IMG/VR virus record: IMGVR_UViG_3300048929_000250
Span: 1-30,902 of that record
Strand: one strand, 5' to 3'
DNA: 30,902 nt
From: a virus
The notes below the pieces were generated by a model. It saw only the letters and a list, made by a program, of their open reading frames with translations. It was not told where the DNA came from and ran no database searches. Made by a program: the position numbers and the translations under genes. Shown here piece by piece: positions 1,331 through 21,323 of the stretch. Every line of letters begins with the position of its first letter. Within the stretch, counting starts at the first letter, position 1.

Positions 1331-2056
1331 TTAATTTTGAACGATACTGACGATGTCACCTGTATTTAAATCTACTCTCGCGGCAACTTGCTCCTTAACA
1401 ACGGCCCCGTAGGCGTTCTTTCCTTTGAAAGTTGTTTTGACAATACCATGAGGATCCTTTCCTAAAACAATGCTGGATACCGTTTCAACATGCTTGTAAG
1501 AATCATCATCATTCATACTTTTCTTAATGAGTTTTTCAAGTGGGCGGTATGACCCATCCCACCCGCTAAAATTAGCTTGAAATGCATCGAGATTTATACG
1601 TTTGGATAAGGCAGCAGGGTTTGTTTCATACTCACCCTCGCACCACCCTAAGACCGTGCTTAAAGGTAGGCTCCCATCTTTCAATAAACTATTTTCACTC
1701 ATGCACGCATAGAATGAATCACTACTTTTAGTGTCAATTTTTTTAAACTTTACATAGTCGCCAATAATTTCATGTCGTGTAGCCTGAGCTTCGCGTCGAT
1801 AATCGCTTAAAGATAAATCAGCGTATTCAAATTTAGCTGGTTCCGCGGCCTTCGGCTCATTTTTGGTATTGGTATCTACAGTGGTCTTAGGTGTTGGATC
1901 GAGCTTCGCACCAGCTACAGCAGCAACTATGAAGACAACTATATAAACCAAACTTGAGCGTTTTCTATTTGGCATAAGAACAAGTTCAGGTTTAGCAAGC
2001 CCAACGAAAAAGGCGATGAATGCTGCAAATGAAATTAATGCTAGTAAAGTTCCCAT
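1331..2056 (-). CDS. Membrane-anchored hypothetical protein between int and cI
   Basis: A 241-aa protein that I cannot assign to a named family. The N-terminus has two hydrophobic segments (about 3-20 and 36-50) separated by a short loop with positive residues (NRKRSS). A Lys/Pro/Thr-rich linker (about 52-75) and a soluble domain (about 75-241) follow. The soluble part ends in a motif-like stretch: GWDGSYRPLEKLIKKSMNDD, then VKTTFKGKNAYGAVV. This suggests a protein anchored in the inner membrane with its bulk on one side. AAGGA lies 7 nt before the ATG. It reads in the same direction as cI and int, so it may be expressed in the lysogen. Superinfection exclusion or lysogenic conversion would fit the position, but this is only inference. 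Confidence 0.8.
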   Translation of the reverse strand: MGTLLALISFAAFIAFFVGLAKPELVLMPNRKRSSLVYIVVFIVAAVAGAKLDPTPKTTVDTNTKNEPKAAEPAKFEYADLSLSDYRREAQATRHEIIGDYVKFKKIDTKSSDSFYACMSENSLLKDGSLPLSTVLGWCEGEYETNPAALSKRINLDAFQANFSGWDGSYRPLEKLIKKSMNDDDSYKHVETVSSIVLGKDPHGIVKTTFKGKNAYGAVVKEQVAARVDLNTGDIVSIVQN

Positions 2057-5463: not shown

Positions 5464-5543
5464 TCATATTCGCGATGGTGTTGCTTGTATTGGCCTCTAT
5501 CAATGCGGGCTATCTGGTCATTGATCTCAAAGACGGCATGTAA
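5460..5543 (+). CDS. 27-aa hydrophobic micro-protein
   Basis: An ORF encoding a peptide that starts MIIFAMVLLVLASINAGYLV and ends IDLKDGM. It overlaps the zinc-finger gene by 4 bp (GTGA) and shares its last base with the gpA start (TAATG). This tight coupling on both sides and the single predicted membrane helix (about 2-20) suggest a real product rather than chance. Even if the peptide has no function, its translation would deliver ribosomes to the gpA start, which has no clear Shine-Dalgarno of its own. The start is GTG. Confidence 0.6.
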   Translation: MIIFAMVLLVLASINAGYLVIDLKDGM

Positions 5544-7792
5544 TGCAGACAAGCCGCTTCACTCCGCAAATTAAAACGCCCGATGCCTGGGCGTTTTCCT
5601 GGAACAAACCACGCCAGGCCGTTTCTGGCCTGGAAAGACCGCTTACCCGTGATGAATACGATCAGGGGCAAGCTGTTTTAATCAGAGTAAAAAACCTCTC
5701 TACCGACCTGCGGGAAATTTTCACAGGCCGTCATGCGCATCTGCTGAAAACCCAGGGCATCCACGCCGCCAATAAATACCTGGTTTATACCCTTGGGCGC
5801 AGCATTCTGCCGCGTGTGGATGCAGTCAATTCAGCGCATGAAATGAATCTTCATGCTTCCATAAAATTCATGTCTGAGGCAGACACCTATCATGGCCTGC
5901 CGAGCATGAGCGACAAACCGCTGCGCCGGTTCGCGCAGGATATCGCCGGACAACTGAAAGAAATCTATGAAGACTATTGCGATCAATTGCTGGAAGAAAA
6001 CGGCGGAGATAATACAGCGCTTTTCTCAGCTTTCACGCAAGGCCACCTATACGGTGAAATCGCCGGAATGGCTCGCGCTTTCAACGTCACGCCGATGTAC
6101 TGGAAGAAATACTGCAAAGGTAAATTAGATGCGGTTTCCGCAATCGCCGGTATGTCACGTTTGGTTAATCCGGATTGGTGGTTAAGTCAGTTGAAAGGCC
6201 AGCGCACCCGCTGGCGTGAGTCTTTGCTGATCGCCATCGGCAAGGTAAACCGCGACTCTTCCCCATATGCCAGTAAGCAGGCTATCCGTGAAGTACGTGC
6301 GCGCCGTCTGTCGAATCTCGATTATCTGAAAAGCTGCGACCTGGAGAACATCGAAACCGGCGAGCGTTTCAGTCTGATCGACAAAGTGATGGCGAGTATT
6401 TCAAACCCTGAAATCCGCCGCATGGAGTTAATGAGCACGATCGCCGGCACCGAAAAATATGCCGCTGCAAATGGCGACGTCGGCATGTTCCTGACCATCA
6501 CCACCCCTTCTAAATATCACCCGACGCGCATGGTGGGTAAGGGCGATAAAAAGCGCGTTCAGCGAAATCACTCCTGGGACAAAGAAGCCTATACCCCGAA
6601 AGATGCTCAGCGTTATCTGTGCGGGATCTGGAGCAAAATGCGCACCGCGTTCAAGGATAGCGGTCTGTCTGTTTACGGGATGCGCGTTGTTGAGCCTCAC
6701 CACGACGCGACACCGCACTGGCACATGATGTTATTCACTAAGCCCGCCATGCGTCAGCGGGTGATCGATATCATGCGCAAATATGCTTTGAAAGAAGATG
6801 GTGACGAACGCGGCGCTGCAAAGAATCGTTTTGACTGCAAGCATATGAACCGTGGCGGTGCGGCTGGCTACATCGCCAAATACATCGCCAAAAATATCGA
6901 CGGTTACGCCCTTGAAGGGGAACGTGATAAAGAAACAGGTGAATTACTTACAGAAGTTGCCGCCGCTGTAACCGCCTGGGCAGCTACCTGGCGTATTCCT
7001 CAGTTTCGCCCTATCGGCCTGCCTACCATGGGTTCATACCGTGAGTGTCGCCGTATCCGCTCCATCAGTCTGTCTGAAACCTTTGACGAAGAAGTGGAAG
7101 CCGTTCGCGCTGCTGCTGATGCCGGTGACTTTATGGCGTACATGTCAGCCCAGGGCGGTGCAAATGTGCCTCGCGACGATCAGACTGTGCGCGTAGCCCG
7201 CCGCGTTGCTGACGAGTTGAATGCCTACGATGAAGAAGTGAAAAAGGTTGTGGGCATTTTTGCGCCTCACCTCGGCGACTCCCGCGTTTATGAAACCCGT
7301 ACAACTCAATGGCGCATCGTTTCTTCCGCCGTTGACGTTGAGGTTTTGACCTTAAAAAGCGCCTCCGGCGCGCCTCGGAGTCCTGTCAATAACTGTGGGT
7401 TAGGTGGAAAGAAACAAGCCACAAATAGGCTCGATAGCAAGGCTGGGAGCGCACCTACAGCGTCTAATTCTGACAACCAGCGAGTTATTGACTGGACAGA
7501 CACAGCCGCCGTGAGGGCGATTGTGGCGCGTATAAGAGAGGAAACACCGAGAGTCAGCAAGGCGCAGCGAAGTTTTGACCCAACAAAGGAGTGCGATGTG
7601 GCCCCATCAGCAAGATTGACGTCTGAAGAACGGGCGCTATTGCCTCAGATTGAACAGGAATTGGTTAAAAACGATATCAAAGCTCAAAGATGGGAGCTGG
7701 AAGCATTAACCCGGGGAGCCAAAATCAGTTTTGGTGATGTTGTGATCCATCATCCCCCTCTTGTGGACTGGCAGGAATTTTATGGCGACTAA
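5543..7792 (+). CDS. A: P2 gpA-type rolling-circle replication endonuclease
   Basis: A 749-aa initiator (P2 A is 761 aa) that nicks one strand at the origin, stays bound to the 5' end and starts rolling-circle replication. The HUH metal motif is H392-W-H394 in TPHWHMMLF, and two catalytic tyrosines sit four residues apart, Y443 and Y447 (YIAKYIAKNIDGY), as in P2 gpA (Y450/Y454). The N-terminal third is the family-specific region. A conserved MGSYRECRRIRSISLS block lies after the tyrosines. The C-terminal 130 residues look less conserved and contain the candidate origin in the DNA. The gene is the last member of the coupled early cluster. Confidence 0.95.
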   Translation: MQTSRFTPQIKTPDAWAFSWNKPRQAVSGLERPLTRDEYDQGQAVLIRVKNLSTDLREIFTGRHAHLLKTQGIHAANKYLVYTLGRSILPRVDAVNSAHEMNLHASIKFMSEADTYHGLPSMSDKPLRRFAQDIAGQLKEIYEDYCDQLLEENGGDNTALFSAFTQGHLYGEIAGMARAFNVTPMYWKKYCKGKLDAVSAIAGMSRLVNPDWWLSQLKGQRTRWRESLLIAIGKVNRDSSPYASKQAIREVRARRLSNLDYLKSCDLENIETGERFSLIDKVMASISNPEIRRMELMSTIAGTEKYAAANGDVGMFLTITTPSKYHPTRMVGKGDKKRVQRNHSWDKEAYTPKDAQRYLCGIWSKMRTAFKDSGLSVYGMRVVEPHHDATPHWHMMLFTKPAMRQRVIDIMRKYALKEDGDERGAAKNRFDCKHMNRGGAAGYIAKYIAKNIDGYALEGERDKETGELLTEVAAAVTAWAATWRIPQFRPIGLPTMGSYRECRRIRSISLSETFDEEVEAVRAAADAGDFMAYMSAQGGANVPRDDQTVRVARRVADELNAYDEEVKKVVGIFAPHLGDSRVYETRTTQWRIVSSAVDVEVLTLKSASGAPRSPVNNCGLGGKKQATNRLDSKAGSAPTASNSDNQRVIDWTDTAAVRAIVARIREETPRVSKAQRSFDPTKECDVAPSARLTSEERALLPQIEQELVKNDIKAQRWELEALTRGAKISFGDVVIHHPPLVDWQEFYGD
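7361..7390 (+). other. ori: Candidate P2-type nick origin inside gene A
   Basis: A short stem CTCCG (7363-7367) / CGGAG (7376-7380) encloses GCGCGCCT and is followed by TCCTGTCAAT. The block CGCCTCGGAGTCCTGTCAA agrees with my memory of the P2 ori cleavage region, which is also located inside gene A. Identification rests on recalled similarity, position and the hairpin. Confidence 0.6.
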
Positions 7793-8101: not shown

Positions 8102-8318
8102 CCAGGAACGCGGGCGATCTCTCTTTGATAGCTCTGCATGCAGTGAGTGCATGATTTTGCATTGTGATCGCCCTGCTCTTTTCTCCCCGCGACACCAGTG
8201 CTGGCATGGATCACAGTGGATCACGCAACTGCATCAAAAGCGACCCATAAAGCGGGCAGGCGTGGCGGGGATAGCATTGCGCGCGGTATTTAATTTAAAT
8301 AAAAACCTTGTTGTTTAA
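8091..8318 (+). CDS. Doubtful 75-aa ORF spanning the cos region
   Basis: An ORF in another frame, starting 11 bp before the stop of the 63-aa gene and running through the cohesive-end site. It encodes several Cys and His residues (SSACSECMILHCD, HQCWH) and ends in NLNKNLVV. There is no ribosome-binding site before ATG 8091. The DNA here is likely to be conserved because it is the cos/terminase recognition region, so an open frame could be incidental. I list it because such an ORF may be annotated in related phages. Confidence 0.25.
   Translation: MKNSQERGRSLFDSSACSECMILHCDRPALFSPRHQCWHGSQWITQLHQKRPIKRAGVAGIALRAVFNLNKNLVV
8259..8277. other. cos: cos: 19-nt cohesive-end sequence
   Basis: GGCGTGGCGGGGATAGCAT closely matches the 19-base cohesive ends of P2 (GGCGAGGCGGGGAAAGCAC) and 186 (GGCGTGGCGGGGAAAGCAT) as I remember them, with one difference from 186. 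Terminase P/M would cut here. The preceding 100 bp contain repeated TGCAT motifs (about 8136-8162) and a GATCAC repeat (8208-8223), which may be part of the terminase recognition region. Confidence 0.85.
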
Positions 8319-8430
8319 CGGCACAACGTAGATTTCTGGTTGATAGATGACTATTTGTGCTTTAATGAAGCTAAATCAGAACTATCATCACTAAACACTG
8401 TCTTCTGAATACAGAGAAGTACTATAGTAG

Positions 8431-8448
8431 TAACCTTATTCAAGGTTA
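8431..8448. repeat. 7-bp perfect inverted repeat, possible operator
   Basis: TAACCTT (8431-8437) and AAGGTTA (8442-8448) are separated by ATTC. A further copy of AAGGTTA follows at 8459-8465. The position upstream of the candidate promoter suggests a regulatory dyad. No U-tract follows, so it is not an obvious terminator. Confidence 0.4.
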
Positions 8449-8488
8449 TGCCGATAGAAGGTTACACAGCAATTTTCTTACTAGATTC

Positions 8489-8517
8489 TTGAGCTCTGTT
8501 ACTACAAACGTTATTTT
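8489..8517 (+). promoter_or_regulatory. Candidate promoter of the cargo operon
   Basis: TTGAGC (8489-8494), a 17-nt spacer and TATTTT (8512-8517) form a reasonable sigma-70 promoter about 70 bp before the first cargo gene. Other AT-rich hexamers nearby are possible. Confidence 0.45.
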
Positions 8518-8586
8518 TTATGAAAAAATTTATTTTGAAGTTGAAGCATACCGATGCAAAGGAATCTTAGTCAGTTAAGGAACTCT

Positions 8587-9393
8587 ATGTCTAAAGTCAC
8601 ACCATGTAACGACAATAATGCGATAAAAAATGTTGCCTACGCTTTCGAATTCGCCAATCCTTTACCATTTTCAATAGTTCAAGAAATCATTGAAATGTAT
8701 AGGAAAGATCCAGAATTATCAAAAGCACTACCGCGCATGCAACCCATTGAAGCGCTAACGTTTGAGTTTGGTGCTGCAGGTAATCATTCGCAATCGCCAA
8801 GCTCTGTAGGCGTTATTTTTGATCGTTTGCTACCTAATGGTGATCAAGCTTGGGCTTTAGTTATAAAATCTGATGCTTTGATAGTAAGTTGTGCAACCTA
8901 TACGAACTGGACTGAAATATTCAGCACAGTAAAAAACTATATTAAAAAAATAGCTAATTTCTTGAATGAGCAGCAGTTAAAAGCTATTGCACTAGAGTTT
9001 TATGATGAATTTAATGTAGAAAGTTTAGCGGATCCAGAATGGATAAATGAGTTATTCAACAATTCGTCTAAATATTTATCTGCAAATGCTCTTCAACAAA
9101 CTGGATCATGGCATTTACATCAAGGCTATTGGAAGATAATTCCATACAAAGATAAGCATTACATCTCTCTAAATAATATAGATTTAAGCTGCCTGGAAGA
9201 AGGAGTTAAGAACATTGCAAGAATACGCCACCTTCAAAAATCTACAGGGTTTGAATTTGGTAATTTAAACTCGATGATTGAAAGCGGTTTTTTTGAAGAC
9301 CTATTTTCTATTAGTCATGATTCGAATCTTGGGCTGATGCGGGATTTAATTTCTCATTCAATGCTTGCTAAAATAAAGCTGGAGGTAGAGTAA
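8587..9393 (+). CDS. TIGR04255-like protein, cargo operon gene 1
   Basis: A 268-aa soluble protein resembling the sporadically distributed TIGR04255 family (about 250-280 aa, no established activity that I know). The family-like signs are an N-terminal AFEFANPLPFSIVQEII, then WALVIKSDALIVSCATYTNW, a long helix of about 20 residues, and an LKAIALEFYDEF stretch. ATG 8587 is chosen over the in-frame ATG 8554 because AAGGA lies 6 nt before it. The stop overlaps the next ATG (TAATG). The codon composition is AT-rich, unlike the late genes. Members of this family are scattered between strains and often sit on mobile DNA, which suits a cargo role. A part in phage defence is inference from the location. 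Confidence 0.78.
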   Translation: MSKVTPCNDNNAIKNVAYAFEFANPLPFSIVQEIIEMYRKDPELSKALPRMQPIEALTFEFGAAGNHSQSPSSVGVIFDRLLPNGDQAWALVIKSDALIVSCATYTNWTEIFSTVKNYIKKIANFLNEQQLKAIALEFYDEFNVESLADPEWINELFNNSSKYLSANALQQTGSWHLHQGYWKIIPYKDKHYISLNNIDLSCLEEGVKNIARIRHLQKSTGFEFGNLNSMIESGFFEDLFSISHDSNLGLMRDLISHSMLAKIKLEVE

Positions 9394-9962
9394 TGAATAC
9401 AATGATGAATACAAACGTTACCACTGCTCCGTTATTTGCAGCCTTTGCGTTATCATTTGCGGTTCCGACAGCCAATGCACAATATACAAAGGAAGTGTAT
9501 ATCCCATCTAGAGCTTATGAGAGACCAGGTGGGGAAAGGAAGTCCATGTTAACAATAAATTCAGGACGTCAGTTGAATACTTTATTTAACAAAATATCTA
9601 AGGAAATCAATAGCTATAGTTCTTTACGGGAAGACTGGGATGGCTATGGTGGAACTGCTCCAACAAATGATGTCATCGCATTAAGCCTTAACTTTTTATC
9701 AATAATTAATTCTAATCATTTACCATTACCTAAGCCAATGGTATCTGGTGACGGAGCGGTGAGTTTATATTGGGAAGATAAAGAAGCTTCTATATATGTT
9801 GAAGTTGCTTTTGATGAAAGCAACTCTTACTCATACATTATTAAAAATTCCGAGGATATGGCTGGTGAAGACGATATAGATCTTTCAGTACTCGGTATAA
9901 AGGGTTGTATCTTGGATACAATTAGAAGCATCCCTAATTCTAGAACTCTAATATTGGCGTAG
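9393..9962 (+). CDS. WDGYG-motif protein, cargo operon gene 2
   Basis: A 189-aa protein coupled to gene 1 by a one-base overlap, with GGAGG 7 nt upstream of the ATG. The core (about 70-160) has a pattern I associate with a widespread uncharacterised family: LREDWDGYGGTAPTND, a helix ending in FLSIIN, then LPLPKPMVSGDGAVSLYWED and a beta-rich stretch. The N-terminus contains a hydrophobic segment (about 11-31) ending AVPTANAQ, which looks like a Sec signal with an AxA-Q cleavage site. There is no Lys or Arg before it, so export is uncertain. The function is unknown, and the fixed operon position suggests a partner of its neighbours. Confidence 0.78.
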   Translation: MNTMMNTNVTTAPLFAAFALSFAVPTANAQYTKEVYIPSRAYERPGGERKSMLTINSGRQLNTLFNKISKEINSYSSLREDWDGYGGTAPTNDVIALSLNFLSIINSNHLPLPKPMVSGDGAVSLYWEDKEASIYVEVAFDESNSYSYIIKNSEDMAGEDDIDLSVLGIKGCILDTIRSIPNSRTLILA

Positions 9963-9966
9963 GTTT

Positions 9967-10554
9967 ATGGAAGAACTAAAGTTAGTATTTATTGATGACG
10001 AAAAATCTGCAGAAAAATGCAAACTACTAGCAGCTAATCATACCGACGCGGTCCATTTAGAGGGTTTTTCCGTAAGCGAGCATTCGCCTTCTATAGTTGC
10101 TAATGATGAAACTGTAGCCAGACAAATTTTTTCTCCATTACATTACGACGATTCACTGGATGAGATTAAAGCATCGGCTTTTACTGATGTTAATAACAAA
10201 GGTCTCTCAGTCAATAGGCTTCGGTTAGTAGAAGAACGAGCTATACACGAACAGGGTCAAAGCAAAGAACTTGCTGACAATACTAGGCTTGAATTACTAG
10301 ATGTCGATAACATAAATCGCCGAAAATATCTTGGCTTTACTAAAGCAAATGTTCAGGATATTAGAGCCGATTTGGAAAATGAGAAGCGTGTATTTGCAAT
10401 ATATGATAGCGCTCTTTTAACGACTCCTTCTCATGCTGATATTTGCCTTATAAAACAAGATGTTGTAGATGGCCTTTCCAAAAAATCCGCAAATATGTTT
10501 CGTCGTAAAAGACTTCAGGAAATGTTTGGAAAGCTTCAAGTAGGTATTAATTAA
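9967..10554 (+). CDS. VARQIFSPLH-motif protein, cargo operon gene 3
   Basis: A 195-aa soluble, charged protein starting 4 bp after gene 2. The most conserved-looking part is residues 48-82: ETVARQIFSPLHYD followed by SAFTDVNNKGLSVNRLRL. I associate this motif with uncharacterised proteins encoded beside WDGYG-type genes, which would make genes 2 and 3 a recurrent pair. No membrane segment or known catalytic motif is visible. The C-terminus is basic (KKSANMFRRKRLQEMFGKLQ). Its last 8 bp overlap the convergent portal gene at TTAATTAA. Function unknown. Confidence 0.78.
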   Translation: MEELKLVFIDDEKSAEKCKLLAANHTDAVHLEGFSVSEHSPSIVANDETVARQIFSPLHYDDSLDEIKASAFTDVNNKGLSVNRLRLVEERAIHEQGQSKELADNTRLELLDVDNINRRKYLGFTKANVQDIRADLENEKRVFAIYDSALLTTPSHADICLIKQDVVDGLSKKSANMFRRKRLQEMFGKLQVGIN

Positions 10555-11569
10555 TCCCCAGGTTGTATTTGTCAAACTCAATTATTAGGATACCGAAATA
10601 TCCATTTACTTCCTTCATTCTCTCTTGCAGCGGCGTCAGCTCGTTCCTAACAAACACTTGCGACGCCTTCTCCACATCCCCGAATCCTCCCGCGTTATCA
10701 GGAATAATTCCCATCATCTGGGGCGGTACACGGTGTGCGCTTAACAGGTCATCACGGCTGGATTTTTTGATATTGAAGAAATCATCCTTGGTGGCGACTT
10801 CACTCAGCGGCAGAATCTGAATGCCGTCCTTCTTGCCGTTGGGCGCGTACATGAACAGGTTGCGGAAGTTTCCCAGGCCTTTGGTGTCCCGCATCGCCTT
10901 TCGCATTGAGTCAATATCACTGCTGCTCTGCGCTGCGTCGGTCATATACAGGATGTAACCCGCGTGCGCGCCGTTCTGGTAGTACTTCCGGCGGAACAAC
11001 GTCGCGGCTTCGTTTAGCCAGGCAGAGTTAAGCGCGCTCAGGTATTCCGGCAGGCCATAAATTTCCTGGTTAATGTCTGGTTCGATCAGGTGGAAGATGC
11101 TGCCTGCGGCGAACTGGTGAGGTTCTTTCCACCCTTGCACAAACCAGTACTCCCCCTCTTCAACTCCGCGACGAACATACTTAGCTGGCACGGTCTCAAA
11201 GCGCAGCGGTTCGCCGAGCTGGTTGCGGATAAGTTCCAGATACGCATTCCCGAATACCAGATAGTCCAGCGCAAATTTGCTGAACTCCTGCTGGCTCAGC
11301 AATGGATGCGGGATAAACGTCGAGGCGAGGATATTGCGCTTCACGTAAATCGGCGAGCTGTGGTGAACGGCGGCGCGAAGGCTGCGGGCAAGGCCATCGA
11401 AACTGACCGGAGGCTCATACCAGCGACCGTTGCCGGTGCACTCGATGTAATCCAGAATCTCGCGACGGTCTAACACCGGCGTCGGATCACCGAAGCTAAA
11501 CATCTCTGCACCCTGCTGGTTTTCTGCGGTGGTGGTTTGTGTGGCTTTACGATATTTGCGCTTGCTCAT
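10547..11569 (-). CDS. Q: Portal protein (P2 gpQ)
   Basis: A 340-aa portal subunit (P2 gpQ 344 aa) forming the dodecameric ring through which DNA enters the capsid. Recognisable parts are the start MSKRKYRKATQ, the FSFGDPTPVLDRREILDYIE region, and the DDLLSAHRVPPQMMGIIPDN block near the C-terminus, which is typical of phage portals. The gene begins directly next to the stop of P, in the leftward P-Q late unit. The last codons overlap the convergent cargo gene and no terminator is visible between them. The coding sequence is GC-rich except at the very 3' end. Confidence 0.95.
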   Translation of the reverse strand: MSKRKYRKATQTTTAENQQGAEMFSFGDPTPVLDRREILDYIECTGNGRWYEPPVSFDGLARSLRAAVHHSSPIYVKRNILASTFIPHPLLSQQEFSKFALDYLVFGNAYLELIRNQLGEPLRFETVPAKYVRRGVEEGEYWFVQGWKEPHQFAAGSIFHLIEPDINQEIYGLPEYLSALNSAWLNEAATLFRRKYYQNGAHAGYILYMTDAAQSSSDIDSMRKAMRDTKGLGNFRNLFMYAPNGKKDGIQILPLSEVATKDDFFNIKKSSRDDLLSAHRVPPQMMGIIPDNAGGFGDVEKASQVFVRNELTPLQERMKEVNGYFGILIIEFDKYNLGIN

Positions 11570-18191: not shown

Positions 18192-18621
18192 CGCCGTGCC
18201 GGTGCTGCAAACCAGCCCCGACACCCTGCGGATGTTTGTGGACAATGGGCGTATCGTTTCCACATTAGCCAGCTCGCTGTCGTTTGAATATCAGTATCAG
18301 ACGGAGCTGCTTATCACCAACTTTGCCCAGGACTGCGATCTGATCATTGTGCCCATTCTGGCCTGGTTGCGTGAGAACCAGCCGGACATCATGGCGACAC
18401 CGGAGAAGCAGCAGACTGGCTTTAAATTCAAGGCCGATATGCTCGATGATGGTTCCTACGATATCGCTATTGACGTGCAGCTCACTGAACGCGTGATCGT
18501 CAAACAGATTGATGCCGGTCTGTACGTGGAGCATTTTCCGGAACCGCCGCTGCCGGAGCCGGTGGAAAGGCCGCGTGAACTGTACCTGCACGGCGAGTTA
18601 GTGAGCCAGTGGCATGAGTGA
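18154..18621 (+). CDS. R: Tail completion protein R
   Basis: A 155-aa protein, exactly the length of P2 gpR, needed to finish the tail for joining to the head. The GTG start at 18154 has AGGAGG 7 nt upstream and yields MLKPAQLRKALTDAVPVLQT, aligning with P2 R. The family blocks LRMFVDNGRI, LIIVPILAWLRENQPDIM and RELYLHGELVSQW are intact. A longer frame opens upstream but has no ribosome site. It overlaps lysC upstream and S downstream (8 bp). Confidence 0.94.
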   Translation: MLKPAQLRKALTDAVPVLQTSPDTLRMFVDNGRIVSTLASSLSFEYQYQTELLITNFAQDCDLIIVPILAWLRENQPDIMATPEKQQTGFKFKADMLDDGSYDIAIDVQLTERVIVKQIDAGLYVEHFPEPPLPEPVERPRELYLHGELVSQWHE

Positions 18622-19072
18622 GCTGTCAGCGTTTGATACCCGTCTGGCAGGGCTGATTGCCGCGCTCTCACCGCAAAGCCGGAAGGCGATGGCGGCGACC
18701 ATTGCGAAGCGTCTGCGCAAACATCAGCAGCAGCGCATTAAACAGCAAATTACCCCGGAGGGGCAGCCCTTCACACCCCGTCGCCCGCAGCCTTTACGCG
18801 CAAAGAAAGGCCGCATTAAGCGGGAAATGTTCGCCAAGCTGCGCACGGCAAAATACATGAAAGCCAAAGGCACCGCTGACGACGCCGTGGTGGAATTTAC
18901 CGGCCAGGTGCAACGGATGGCAAAAGTGCATCAGTACGGGCTGCGGGATCGCCCGTCCGTCCGTGCAAAAGAAATGCAGTATCCGGCGCGCCCGCTGTTA
19001 GGACTCATTCATGATGATCTTGAAATCATTGAGCAGACTTTTTTAAATATATTACATAATAATATTGACTGA
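18614..19072 (+). CDS. S: Tail completion protein S
   Basis: A 152-aa protein (P2 gpS 150 aa) of the phage virion morphogenesis family. The blocks LSPQSRKAMAATIAKRLRKH, FTPRRPQPLRAKKGRIKREM and VHQYGLRDRP are typical. PARPLLGLIHDDLEIIEQTF near the end is also normal. The last ten codons (FLNILHNNID region, about 19037-19069) switch abruptly to AT-rich codons, so the 3' end was probably rewritten by the cargo insertion that follows. Confidence 0.93.
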   Translation: MSELSAFDTRLAGLIAALSPQSRKAMAATIAKRLRKHQQQRIKQQITPEGQPFTPRRPQPLRAKKGRIKREMFAKLRTAKYMKAKGTADDAVVEFTGQVQRMAKVHQYGLRDRPSVRAKEMQYPARPLLGLIHDDLEIIEQTFLNILHNNID

Positions 19073-19106
19073 TGTTACGCTAAAAAAATTTTAACTCATA
19101 ATGAGT

Positions 19107-19142
19107 AAAACTATGGGGTTTTATTAATCGCCCCATAGTTTT
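19107..19142 (+). terminator. Terminator after S (possibly bidirectional)
   Basis: A perfect 12-bp stem, AAAACTATGGGG (19107-19118) with CCCCATAGTTTT (19131-19142), has a 12-nt loop and is followed by a pyrimidine-rich tail (CCTCTTT). It would end the O-to-S late transcript 35 bp after the S stop and may also act on the convergent phosphatase transcript. Confidence 0.75.
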
Positions 19143-19281
19143 CCTCTTTAAGAACTTCGTTCTGCTTGTGCTTTACATAGTAATGCATTCAAATCAAAAG
19201 CCAAAATGAAAGAGCTTATTCATTGCATGCAAAAAAAATAACAATCAAATAAATAACTGCATATACATAAATCAATTATGC

Positions 19282-19977
19282 TTATTGGATTTGTATAATG
19301 TTTATCTCATTTCCTACGTAAGAGCTAGTATCAATCCATACTTGATTCCCGTCTCTGAAGGGGGCAGTTAATGAGCTATGACCAAAAATGAATTGCTTTG
19401 CCCCTTTGATTTTTCGACCATTCGCGTTCATAGCATTAAATAGTCTTTCACGGCTCCAGCTCACTTTCCAGAGATCAACACTTTTCCCGAATTTATAATA
19501 GTTACTTGGATAATCAGCATGACAAATAACATGCTTTCCATCATTAACATTTGCCTCAATAATGAAAGGTAAGCTTTGAATTTTCCTTATTAAAATGTCA
19601 ACCTTTCTTTTATCTTCTAAATCCAGATTGAAGTACCAACTCCCCCCATGTGATTTCCAATACGCGGCGTTCACACCCTCTATAGCATCAAGAGCCATTT
19701 CTTCATGATTACCACGCACAGAGACAAACCAACTTTGCCCGATTAGTTCGAGGCACTTAATATTATCAGAGCCATAGTCTATTAAATTCCCGACAGAAAT
19801 AAGAAGGTCCTTTTCTTTGTTAAAGCTTACATTTAATAGTTCTTGATTAAGCTGGTGGAAGTTACCGTGAACATCACCGACAACAAAAATCCTTTCATAT
19901 TCCTTCCCATTGATCTTCCGATAAGTTCCTTTTGGAGACCGGCAAAGACCTAAAAAATAGAGTATCGACTTAATCAT
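19282..19977 (-). CDS. Lambda/PrpA-type serine/threonine protein phosphatase (cargo)
   Basis: A 231-aa metallophosphoesterase of the phage lambda phosphatase/PrpA type (lambda protein 221 aa). Motifs in order are FVVGDVHGNFHQL (about 32-44), VGNLIDYGSDN (about 64-74), VRGNHEEMALDA (about 89-100), VICHADYP and QFIFGHSSLTAP. The second motif is normally GDxxDRG. Here the metal-bridging Asp is Asn and the Arg is Tyr, so activity may be altered. ATG 19977 is chosen, with AGAGA upstream. A GTG at 19989 would add four residues. The gene is AT-rich, antisense to the late operon and placed at the S-V junction where P2 has orf30, so it is a moron probably expressed in the lysogen. Confidence 0.85.
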   Translation of the reverse strand: MIKSILYFLGLCRSPKGTYRKINGKEYERIFVVGDVHGNFHQLNQELLNVSFNKEKDLLISVGNLIDYGSDNIKCLELIGQSWFVSVRGNHEEMALDAIEGVNAAYWKSHGGSWYFNLDLEDKRKVDILIRKIQSLPFIIEANVNDGKHVICHADYPSNYYKFGKSVDLWKVSWSRERLFNAMNANGRKIKGAKQFIFGHSSLTAPFRDGNQVWIDTSSYVGNEINIIQIQ

Positions 19978-20615
19978 ACTTTCTCTCACGACTCACTCAT
20001 TCTTACTGCCGAAGCGTCAACGAAGCCGGGCTGGTGCCGTTTCAAATGCTACTAACTATCCTGGAACAAGGTTTTATAGAATTCTTCAGTTTGCTACCCC
20101 TTTGAAGAGCGATTTAACTTTACGATAATCTGATAAAAATCAAATGTTAACAAATTTCACATTAAGCCAATAGGAATAATCTTAATAAACGCAAAGATAT
20201 CATTAGATTTTCTTGAGTTTTTTTATGAGTACGTATGAACCCTTGACTTGAAGTTTTTAGCAAGAAAATAAAAAAAACCAATTAAAGTAGTTACATAACT
20301 AATTTCTTGTAAAAAATTAGCAGGTTGCTGACATCATTGTTTTTAGAGGGTTAGCCTCAGTTAACCATGATGATAATGTATCTACTTTATTTTTTTTAAA
20401 GGAATGGACGATTCAGCTTATGTTTGGCATTGACGAGCTTTTATAGATTCGGACGATGAAAAATAATTAGGAGTGATAACTTCCGTAATTAAAGGACTCC
20501 CGGATTACATGTGGCGGAACGCTTGAGGAAAATCTTCATGCATTTCTCTGCGAACCCGCATGAATGGACAAAAAAGGACTGGCTTAGACACTGTTATTTA
20601 GGCTTAGGTTGGACG
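19978..20615. other. AT-rich cargo flank without a credible gene
   Basis: About 640 bp between the phosphatase and the V late promoter. Most of it is very AT-rich with runs of A and T. A short patch near 20008-20050 and the last 120 bp return to higher GC. Only short frames exist. The right part has an open frame 20493-20662 discussed as a finding. The phosphatase promoter should lie in the left part. Confidence 0.5.
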
Positions 20616-20634
20616 TTGTGCCATCCGCCATCAA
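20616..20634. promoter_or_regulatory. Probable Ogr/delta activator site before V
   Basis: TTGTGCCATCCGCCATCAA keeps TTGTGCCATC of the P/O site and has TCA where the dyad expects ACA, 11 nt after TGT. It lies about 57 bp upstream of the V start, so the predicted transcript would have almost no leader, which is odd. It marks the return to phage late-region sequence after the cargo insertion. Confidence 0.55.
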
Positions 20635-20681
20635 CCCGCCTCAAATTGTATGCTACCTGACAGGGCGGCATTCTTTTATCC

Positions 20682-21323
20682 ATGAATACATCCATCCCAA
20701 ACAACGACATTCCGCGCCTGCTGCGCAATCTGATCCGCATTGGCACCGTTGCCGAGGTGGATTTGGATGCGGGCACCTGTCGCGTCAATACCGGCGGTAA
20801 CGTCACCGACTGGCTGCACTGGCTGACCTCCCGCGCAGGGCGCTCGCGTTCCTGGTGGGCACCCTCTGCCGGTGAGCAGGTTTTATTGTTTTGCCTGGGC
20901 GGTGAACTGGATACTGCCTTTGTGATGCCGGGCGTTTTCTCTGATGAATTCGCCGCCCCGTCGGCGTCAGCCGATGCCGTACACGTCACGTTTCCTGACG
21001 GCGCGGTAATTGAGTACGAACCCAAAACAGGCGCATTGCTGGCTACCGGTATCAAGTCCGCCACGGTGAACGCCTCGGACAAGGTGGCGGTGACTGCACC
21101 GGACATCACCTGCACGGCATCCACCCGTATCACGCTCGACACGCCAGAGGTGGTTTGTACCAAAAAACTCACCACGGGCAGTCTGGAGGTGAAACAAGGC
21201 GGCACGATGACCGGGAACCTCACCCATTCCGGCGGCAGCCTCACGTCAAACGGCGTGGTGGTGCATACCCATAAACACGGCGGCGTCCAGACGGGCGGCG
21301 GTCAAACGCAGGTGCCTTCATGA
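20682..21323 (+). CDS. V: Baseplate spike protein (P2 gpV)
   Basis: A 213-aa spike (P2 gpV 211 aa) that tips the tail tube and pierces the outer membrane. The N-terminal OB-like domain (about 18-95) includes GTVAEVDLDAGTCRVNTGG and WWAPSAGEQVLLFCLGGELD. The ADAVHVTFPDGAVIEYEPKTG block leads into the beta-helix (about 125-200; CTASTRITLDTPEVVCTKKL). The C-terminal HTHKH provides the HxH iron-binding apex. The ATG has no strong ribosome site. The last 4 bp overlap W (ATGA). Confidence 0.95.
   Translation: MNTSIPNNDIPRLLRNLIRIGTVAEVDLDAGTCRVNTGGNVTDWLHWLTSRAGRSRSWWAPSAGEQVLLFCLGGELDTAFVMPGVFSDEFAAPSASADAVHVTFPDGAVIEYEPKTGALLATGIKSATVNASDKVAVTAPDITCTASTRITLDTPEVVCTKKLTTGSLEVKQGGTMTGNLTHSGGSLTSNGVVVHTHKHGGVQTGGGQTQVPS

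Follow-up and report, generated by a model that had tools for sequence, protein, structure and literature searches.

What do three adjacent AT-rich genes do between the packaging site and the portal gene of a P2-like prophage, and do they act together? The locus lies in a 30.9-kb IMG/VR record, analysed here over its full length of 30,902 nucleotides (the window). A sequence-only reading had proposed that the genes form a single functional unit, probably an undescribed system protecting the lysogen from other phages.

The prophage and the edges of the insert

The window corresponds to a P2-like prophage with the order integrase, CI-type repressor, CII (CP76), DUF2732, DUF5405, gpA, cos, cargo, portal/terminase region and late genes, the last two identified by DNA similarity to P2-like phages. 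The cos-like site (Table 1) is the only one in the window resembling the P2 cos 19-mer. An identical sequence is present in Erwinia phage ENT90, and E. coli P2-like prophages carry the exact P2 19-mer at the equivalent position. Blastn comparison of the window with ENT90 gives 91% identity over positions 8217-8285, nothing until 10610 and then 80% identity inside Q. The foreign DNA therefore starts about 8 bp after cos and includes the last ~20 codons of Q. It had first been delimited by the end of gene 3 (10554), which is too short: it extends to about 10609. The cargo does lie between cos and the portal gene, as proposed, and its codons are indeed AT-rich and unlike those of the phage genes: the three genes have a GC content of 35-37% (25-30% at third codon positions, GC3) against 52-55% (GC3 55-67%) for gpA, O, N and Q. 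The locus had also been credited with its own promoter. However, promoter-like sites are no more common than in shuffled sequence (10 found, 9.8 expected), so that such a promoter is not established.

Table 1. Coordinates in the window of the insert, its genes and the flanking features
Feature	Position	Strand	Evidence
gpA replication protein (flank)	5543..7792	+	Pfam PF05840 (Phage_GPA), E 1.8e-102
cos-like packaging site GGCGTGGCGGGGATAGCAT	8259..8277	+	3 mismatches to P2 cos 19-mer; 0.01 expected by chance
AT-rich insert (cargo)	about 8286..10609		~8 bp past cos to inside 3' end of Q; blastn against ENT90, GC
Gene 1, TIGR04255 family protein, 268 aa; proposed sensor or chaperone-like component	8587..9393 (ORF from ATG 8554)	+	NCBIfam TIGR04255, E 8.9e-14
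Gene 2, WDGYG-domain protein, 189 aa; proposed adaptor or antitoxin	9393..9962	+	PADLOC PDC-M32A, E 3.2e-8; relatives adjoin gene 3
DWDGYG motif of gene 2	9633..9650	+	Read from sequence; invariant in alignment A2
Gene 3, 195 aa; proposed effector	9967..10554	+	HMM A1 relatives, conserved residues, AF2 core
Portal gene Q (flank)	10547..11569	-	DNA similarity to annotated portal gene of ENT90; last ~20 codons within inserted DNA

Two other regions of the window carry AT-rich DNA. P2-like phages keep morons in the tail region between S and V. A second AT-rich cargo (about 19070-20650) lies between tail-region ORFs 18614-19072 and 20682-21323, which are probably S and V; a lambda-type Ser/Thr protein phosphatase is encoded at 19282-19989 on the minus strand (PDB 1g5b, E 3e-62). 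An AT-rich gene between the integrase and the CI repressor (1331-2056, minus strand) encodes a 241-aa protein with N-terminal hydrophobic segments and no Pfam family.

A variable site beside cos

The tin and old genes of P2 are located on the gpA side of cos. The sequence-only reading had likened the present cargo to them: proximity to cos is common to both, while the side differs, as the window cargo lies on the Q side. P2-like prophages carry cargo on either side when the window is set beside four E. coli prophages. It is mostly or wholly on the gpA side in three of the four (L002, L172, L173) and on the Q side in the fourth (L171), as in the window.

The interval between gpA and gpQ was defined as a hotspot by Rousset et al. 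2022 (PMC9122126) and was likewise observed by Vassallo et al. 2022 (PMC9519451), both reporting antiviral cassettes there. The insert agrees with the definition given in PMC9122126, being variable, between gpA and gpQ and adjoining cos. It shares with old, tin and the cassettes of both studies the locus beside cos, the AT-richness, the variability and an edge near cos. It differs in gene content, which is not named in the available portions of either study. Other P2-like prophages carry at this site an ABC-three component system, an AAA ATPase, a DUF262 protein, DprA or a reverse transcriptase.

Conservation of the three genes as a unit

The three genes are co-directional, with a one-base overlap between the first and second ORFs (8554-9393 and 9393-9962) and a 4-bp gap before the third, as originally noted. 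Nucleotide and tblastn searches with the window's own sequences identified no relatives among phages, plasmids, E. coli genomes and IMG/VR. Relatives were found with a codon pattern for DWDGYG followed by G or A, run on IMG/VR, and then with an HMM of gene 3. Among the gene-2 relatives retrieved by the pattern, three loci (L020, L030, L047) include all three genes in the same order, at 25-36% identity. The HMM built on gene 3 only (A1) added relatives from 10 more genomes or contigs. Three are Pseudomonas aylmerensis (L054), Pseudomonas sp. R-28-1W-6 (L055) and Spirosoma endophyticum (L056); the other seven genomes belong to the order of Pseudomonas, its class and the order of Spirosoma. These gene-3 relatives from Pseudomonas, other Gammaproteobacteria and Bacteroidota show 23-37% identity.

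Gene 2 adjoins gene 3 in 11 of 11 loci and a TIGR04255 gene lies upstream in 10 of the 11, a count that takes in L020 and L052 and leaves out L071, at a contig end. The exception (L067) has no upstream TIGR04255 gene and contains an unmatched 343-aa ORF. In the reverse direction, 10 of 27 TIGR04255 loci from 185 gammaproteobacterial genomes are followed downstream by gene 2 and/or gene 3 according to the HMMs, two of these ten being already known through the gene-3 search. TIGR04255 occurs in about 10% of the gammaproteobacterial genomes sampled, and gene-3 relatives in about 1% of the sampled genomes of the Pseudomonadales order and Gammaproteobacteria. Overlaps or short intergenic gaps were observed in most of the nine loci measured. 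The three genes therefore form one conserved unit, which bears out the proposed functional unit as far as conservation goes, and they co-occur in the same order in distant genomes of Gammaproteobacteria and Bacteroidota. That they are decaying cargo or came together by chance, sharing no function, is extremely improbable: the absence of relatives from the phage and plasmid collections searched is all that speaks for it, while the intact frames, the overlaps and short gaps, and above all an order conserved across phyla at such low identity already contradict it.

Genomic surroundings of the relatives

A proximity to defence genes had been suggested as a check, and several relatives do occupy prophages or have restriction or Abi-type genes as neighbours. 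One locus (L067) directly adjoins a type IIG restriction-modification enzyme and a DUF262-type (HEC-05) protein, and four others (L054, L056, L069, L070) are near integrase or capsid genes. An integrase is found within 16 kb in four of nine module loci against none of 20 control windows taken from these contigs (Fisher p 0.005), in a small sample where the integrase HMM was built from integrases including three of the scored module loci and the control windows were placed at round coordinates.

As prophage cargo, the cassette may alternatively act in superinfection exclusion without killing, or in lysogenic conversion. The wider possibility that it serves lysogenic conversion or anti-defence, for example by altering host physiology or countering host restriction, would agree with the commonness of such roles among prophage cargo genes and with the fact that all three families are dark in Pfam. 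However, the hotspot precedent stands against it, and relatives outside phages adjoin restriction enzymes (L067), a setting ill-suited to an anti-restriction gene; we consider this role very unlikely.

The three proteins

Gene 1 had been likened to TIGR04255, and its score (51.9 bits) exceeds the curated cut-off of 30 bits. Its start is probably ATG 8587 and not 8554, because an AAGGA motif (8577-8581) lies 5 nt upstream and the position aligns with the starts of the relatives. The AF2 model is alpha/beta with long antiparallel strands (pLDDT 74). Foldseek and VIA-align searches with it gave no trusted fold match, only common alpha/beta arrangements (AdoMetDC, guanidino kinases, TBP; Z up to 8.4). 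In Pfam, Pox_B6 was a near miss below cut-off. TIGR04255 itself is annotated by NCBIfam as a "sporadically distributed" family; gene 1 is a member, but the family is defined by sequence only, with no described function, and no paper naming it was found in the literature searched.

Gene 2 contains the WDGYG core noted at the outset, within a DWDGYG motif whose invariance in alignment A2 is to be read knowing that the distant members were retrieved with this very motif. No Pfam or NCBIfam family was found for this protein. Its residues 66-176 match the C-terminal third (~110 positions) of the PADLOC profile PDC-M32A. The window protein has a hydrophobic N-terminal stretch (KD 1.53), which is present in two of 20 gene-2 proteins, the window's included, and in seven of 12 middle genes of other TIGR04255 operons. 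The idea that gene-2 proteins generally bear an N-terminal segment for the membrane or for chaperone addiction found no statistical support, two of 20 being no more than in gene 1.

Gene 3 falls into none of the families of Pfam, NCBIfam, PADLOC or PHROGs, with no PADLOC match up to E 1 and a Pfam near miss (Phage_tail_S) below cut-off. Four residues are conserved across its superfamily in alignments A4 and A7 (R52, S81, R84 and H156 in window numbering); the broad alignment is too divergent to scan by pattern. The core of the AF2 model is well predicted (pLDDT 83-94, pTM 0.75). Foldseek and VIA-align gave no usable fold match and no recognised toxin, ADP-ribosyltransferase or RNase fold. The best VIA-align match, to residues 758-883 of SdeA in its ART region (Z 3.8, 90 residues, rmsd 3.3), is too weak to rely on. 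Sequence searches of the PDB identified no solved relative of any of the three proteins. The missing fold matches of genes 1 and 3 do not amount to a demonstration of new folds.

Relation to the PDC-M32 defence candidate

PDC-M32 is a phage defence candidate of PADLOC composed of PDC-M32A and PDC-M32B. The similarity of gene 2 to PDC-M32A lies in the C-terminal domain (E 3e-8), and the order, A then B, is the same. The gene-3 superfamily as a whole aligns with PDC-M32B in hhalign (probability 95.5%, E 1e-8; unrelated controls at most 0.2%) whereas the close gene-3 group alone does not (1%, no alignment), so that the link goes via intermediate relatives. The N-terminal ~250 residues of PDC-M32A are replaced in the window by a separate gene, and show no similarity to TIGR04255 or gene 1 in hhalign (probability 0.1%). 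Gene 2 thus covers the C-terminal ~110 positions of PDC-M32A and not the full protein with its N-terminal and WDGxG domains, and gene 3 is not matched by the PDC-M32B HMM.

In the PDC-M32A proteins examined (L074-L078), an unrelated N-terminal domain is fused to the WDGxG domain and followed, where checked, by PDC-M32B. In several loci PDC-M32A adjoins a type I methyltransferase gene or an HsdS-like ORF (HsdS recognized by eye), the sampling being mostly of copies near type I restriction genes. The gene-2 domain is also fused to TPR-like repeats (by eye) in L080. In L083 (881-3393), the gene-2/gene-3 pair follows an AbiLi-like ATPase, possibly a third upstream partner. As genes 2 and 3 are thus found behind the PDC-M32A N-terminus, the repeats or the ATPase, the pair forms a core whose upstream component can be exchanged. 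In L080 (1106-2790) and L087, the PDC-M32-type pairs are followed by ORFs that appear by eye MNT-like (both loci) and HEPN-like (L087).

Other TIGR04255 operons and toxin-antitoxin-chaperone systems

TIGR04255 genes also head operons with other partners. In these sister operons the middle gene carries an HTH or a hydrophobic N-terminus, and the third gene encodes a protein with a T/S-x-x-C-D-[IL] motif, an NlpC-like protein (by eye) or a PIN domain. The T/S-x-x-C-D-[IL] family terminates seven of them (L088, L091, L102, L105, L107, L108, L111), several with an HTH middle protein bearing an N-terminal hydrophobic stretch, and no Pfam family was found among its members scanned. The PIN case (L093, 1480-3015) comprises TIGR04255, a short hydrophobic protein and the PIN domain (PF01850, E 1.4e-8); it looks like a three-part VapBC-type operon and is the only sampled TIGR04255 operon ending in a known toxin domain.

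In toxin-antitoxin-chaperone (TAC) systems, a single family of chaperones is found with several toxin-antitoxin pairs (PMC5105189, PMC11618068). The present cassette resembles TAC systems such as CmdTAC (PD-T4-9) and M. tuberculosis HigBA-SecB in its three co-directional genes on mobile elements and in a constant partner, TIGR04255, joined to varied middle and third pairs including an HTH middle and a PIN third. However, the order in the window is reversed, with the chaperone seat first, a chaperone-addiction extension is not evident in the gene-2 relatives, and gene 3 lacks a recognised ADP-ribosyltransferase or RNase fold. The operon logic suggested TIGR04255 as a SecB homologue, which was rejected on sequence: hhalign of 26 TIGR04255 against 27 SecB sequences gives a probability of 0.3%. 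In Foldseek, a SecB chain appears only at rank 46 for the gene 1 model (prob 0.41).

Because tested features that define each of them are absent, we place the cassette, as a variant, among the TA-like candidate defence cassettes carried by prophages, outside both PDC-M32 and TAC. The claim of an undescribed system needs qualifying, since a relative is already a PADLOC candidate, through PDC-M32A (E 3e-8) and, by profile comparison, PDC-M32B. The PADLOC profiles recovered gene 2 and left gene 3 without a match.

An ordinary toxin-antitoxin or addiction module, keeping the prophage stable or taking part in a general response to stress and not directed against phages, would account for the compact, translationally coupled genes on mobile elements, for the PIN and HTH partners of the sister operons and for the MNT/HEPN-like ORFs (by eye) beside PDC-M32 copies. 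We regard it as unlikely, given a hotspot shared with many antiviral cassettes and PDC-M32 copies in restriction loci, although these too are compatible with it.

A possible abortive infection cassette

A defence role of the cassette is probable from its context. The reading that we favour, tentatively and at somewhat less than an even chance, is that of a mobile three-gene cassette occupying the cargo site beside cos in a P2-like prophage and protecting the lysogen by abortive infection with a sensor, an adaptor and an effector arranged in a TAC-like logic. The TIGR04255 protein would watch for a phage product, and the WDGYG protein would couple it to gene 3 and keep the latter silent. Titration or alteration of the gene 1 protein during infection would then release gene 3 and stop growth. 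The cassette would thus work like a TAC system with TIGR04255 in the sensor or chaperone seat, and with no detectable SecB homology. We infer the gene roles, and with them the trigger and the killing step; the sensor, regulator and toxin assignment is drawn from the exchangeable partners and the PIN-ended sister operon. The order conserved across phyla, the reverse test, the hotspot, the modular partners, the restriction neighbours and the integrase enrichment argue for abortive infection. Against it weigh the lack of a recognised toxin fold in gene 3, of a trusted fold match for gene 1 and of profile similarity to SecB, an N-terminal extension limited to two of 20 gene-2 proteins, and the singularity of the PIN-ended operon.

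An anti-phage cassette with another division of labour is fairly unlikely. Gene 3 would then sense or bind the phage product with gene 1 as effector, or the three proteins would form one complex that blocks a step in phage growth without killing. TIGR04255, constant across several operon types, could equally be the effector that stays the same, and what changes beside the gene-2/gene-3 pair is the first or N-terminal part. The cargo site (PMC9122126) favours defence either way. However, the third-position PIN domain of one TIGR04255 operon and the middle HTH of others suggest a toxin in third place and a regulator or antitoxin in the middle, as in the abortive infection scheme.

We also propose, with considerable doubt, that TIGR04255 is the constant part of a large unrecognised class of tripartite defence systems, where it would be a non-SecB sensor or chaperone with interchangeable regulator and effector genes. 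These pairs would comprise WDGYG with gene 3, HTH with the T/S-x-x-C-D protein, a short protein with PIN, and others. The first of these is the type present in the window, and the fold of its effector would be new.

An insert edge lying about 8 bp from cos agrees with the published proposal that cos is a point of cargo exchange in P2-like phages. If the cassette is a defence system, three families with no Pfam entry (TIGR04255, the WDGYG domain and gene 3) would gain a function together, and the PDC-M32 candidate would be explained as its fused cousin.
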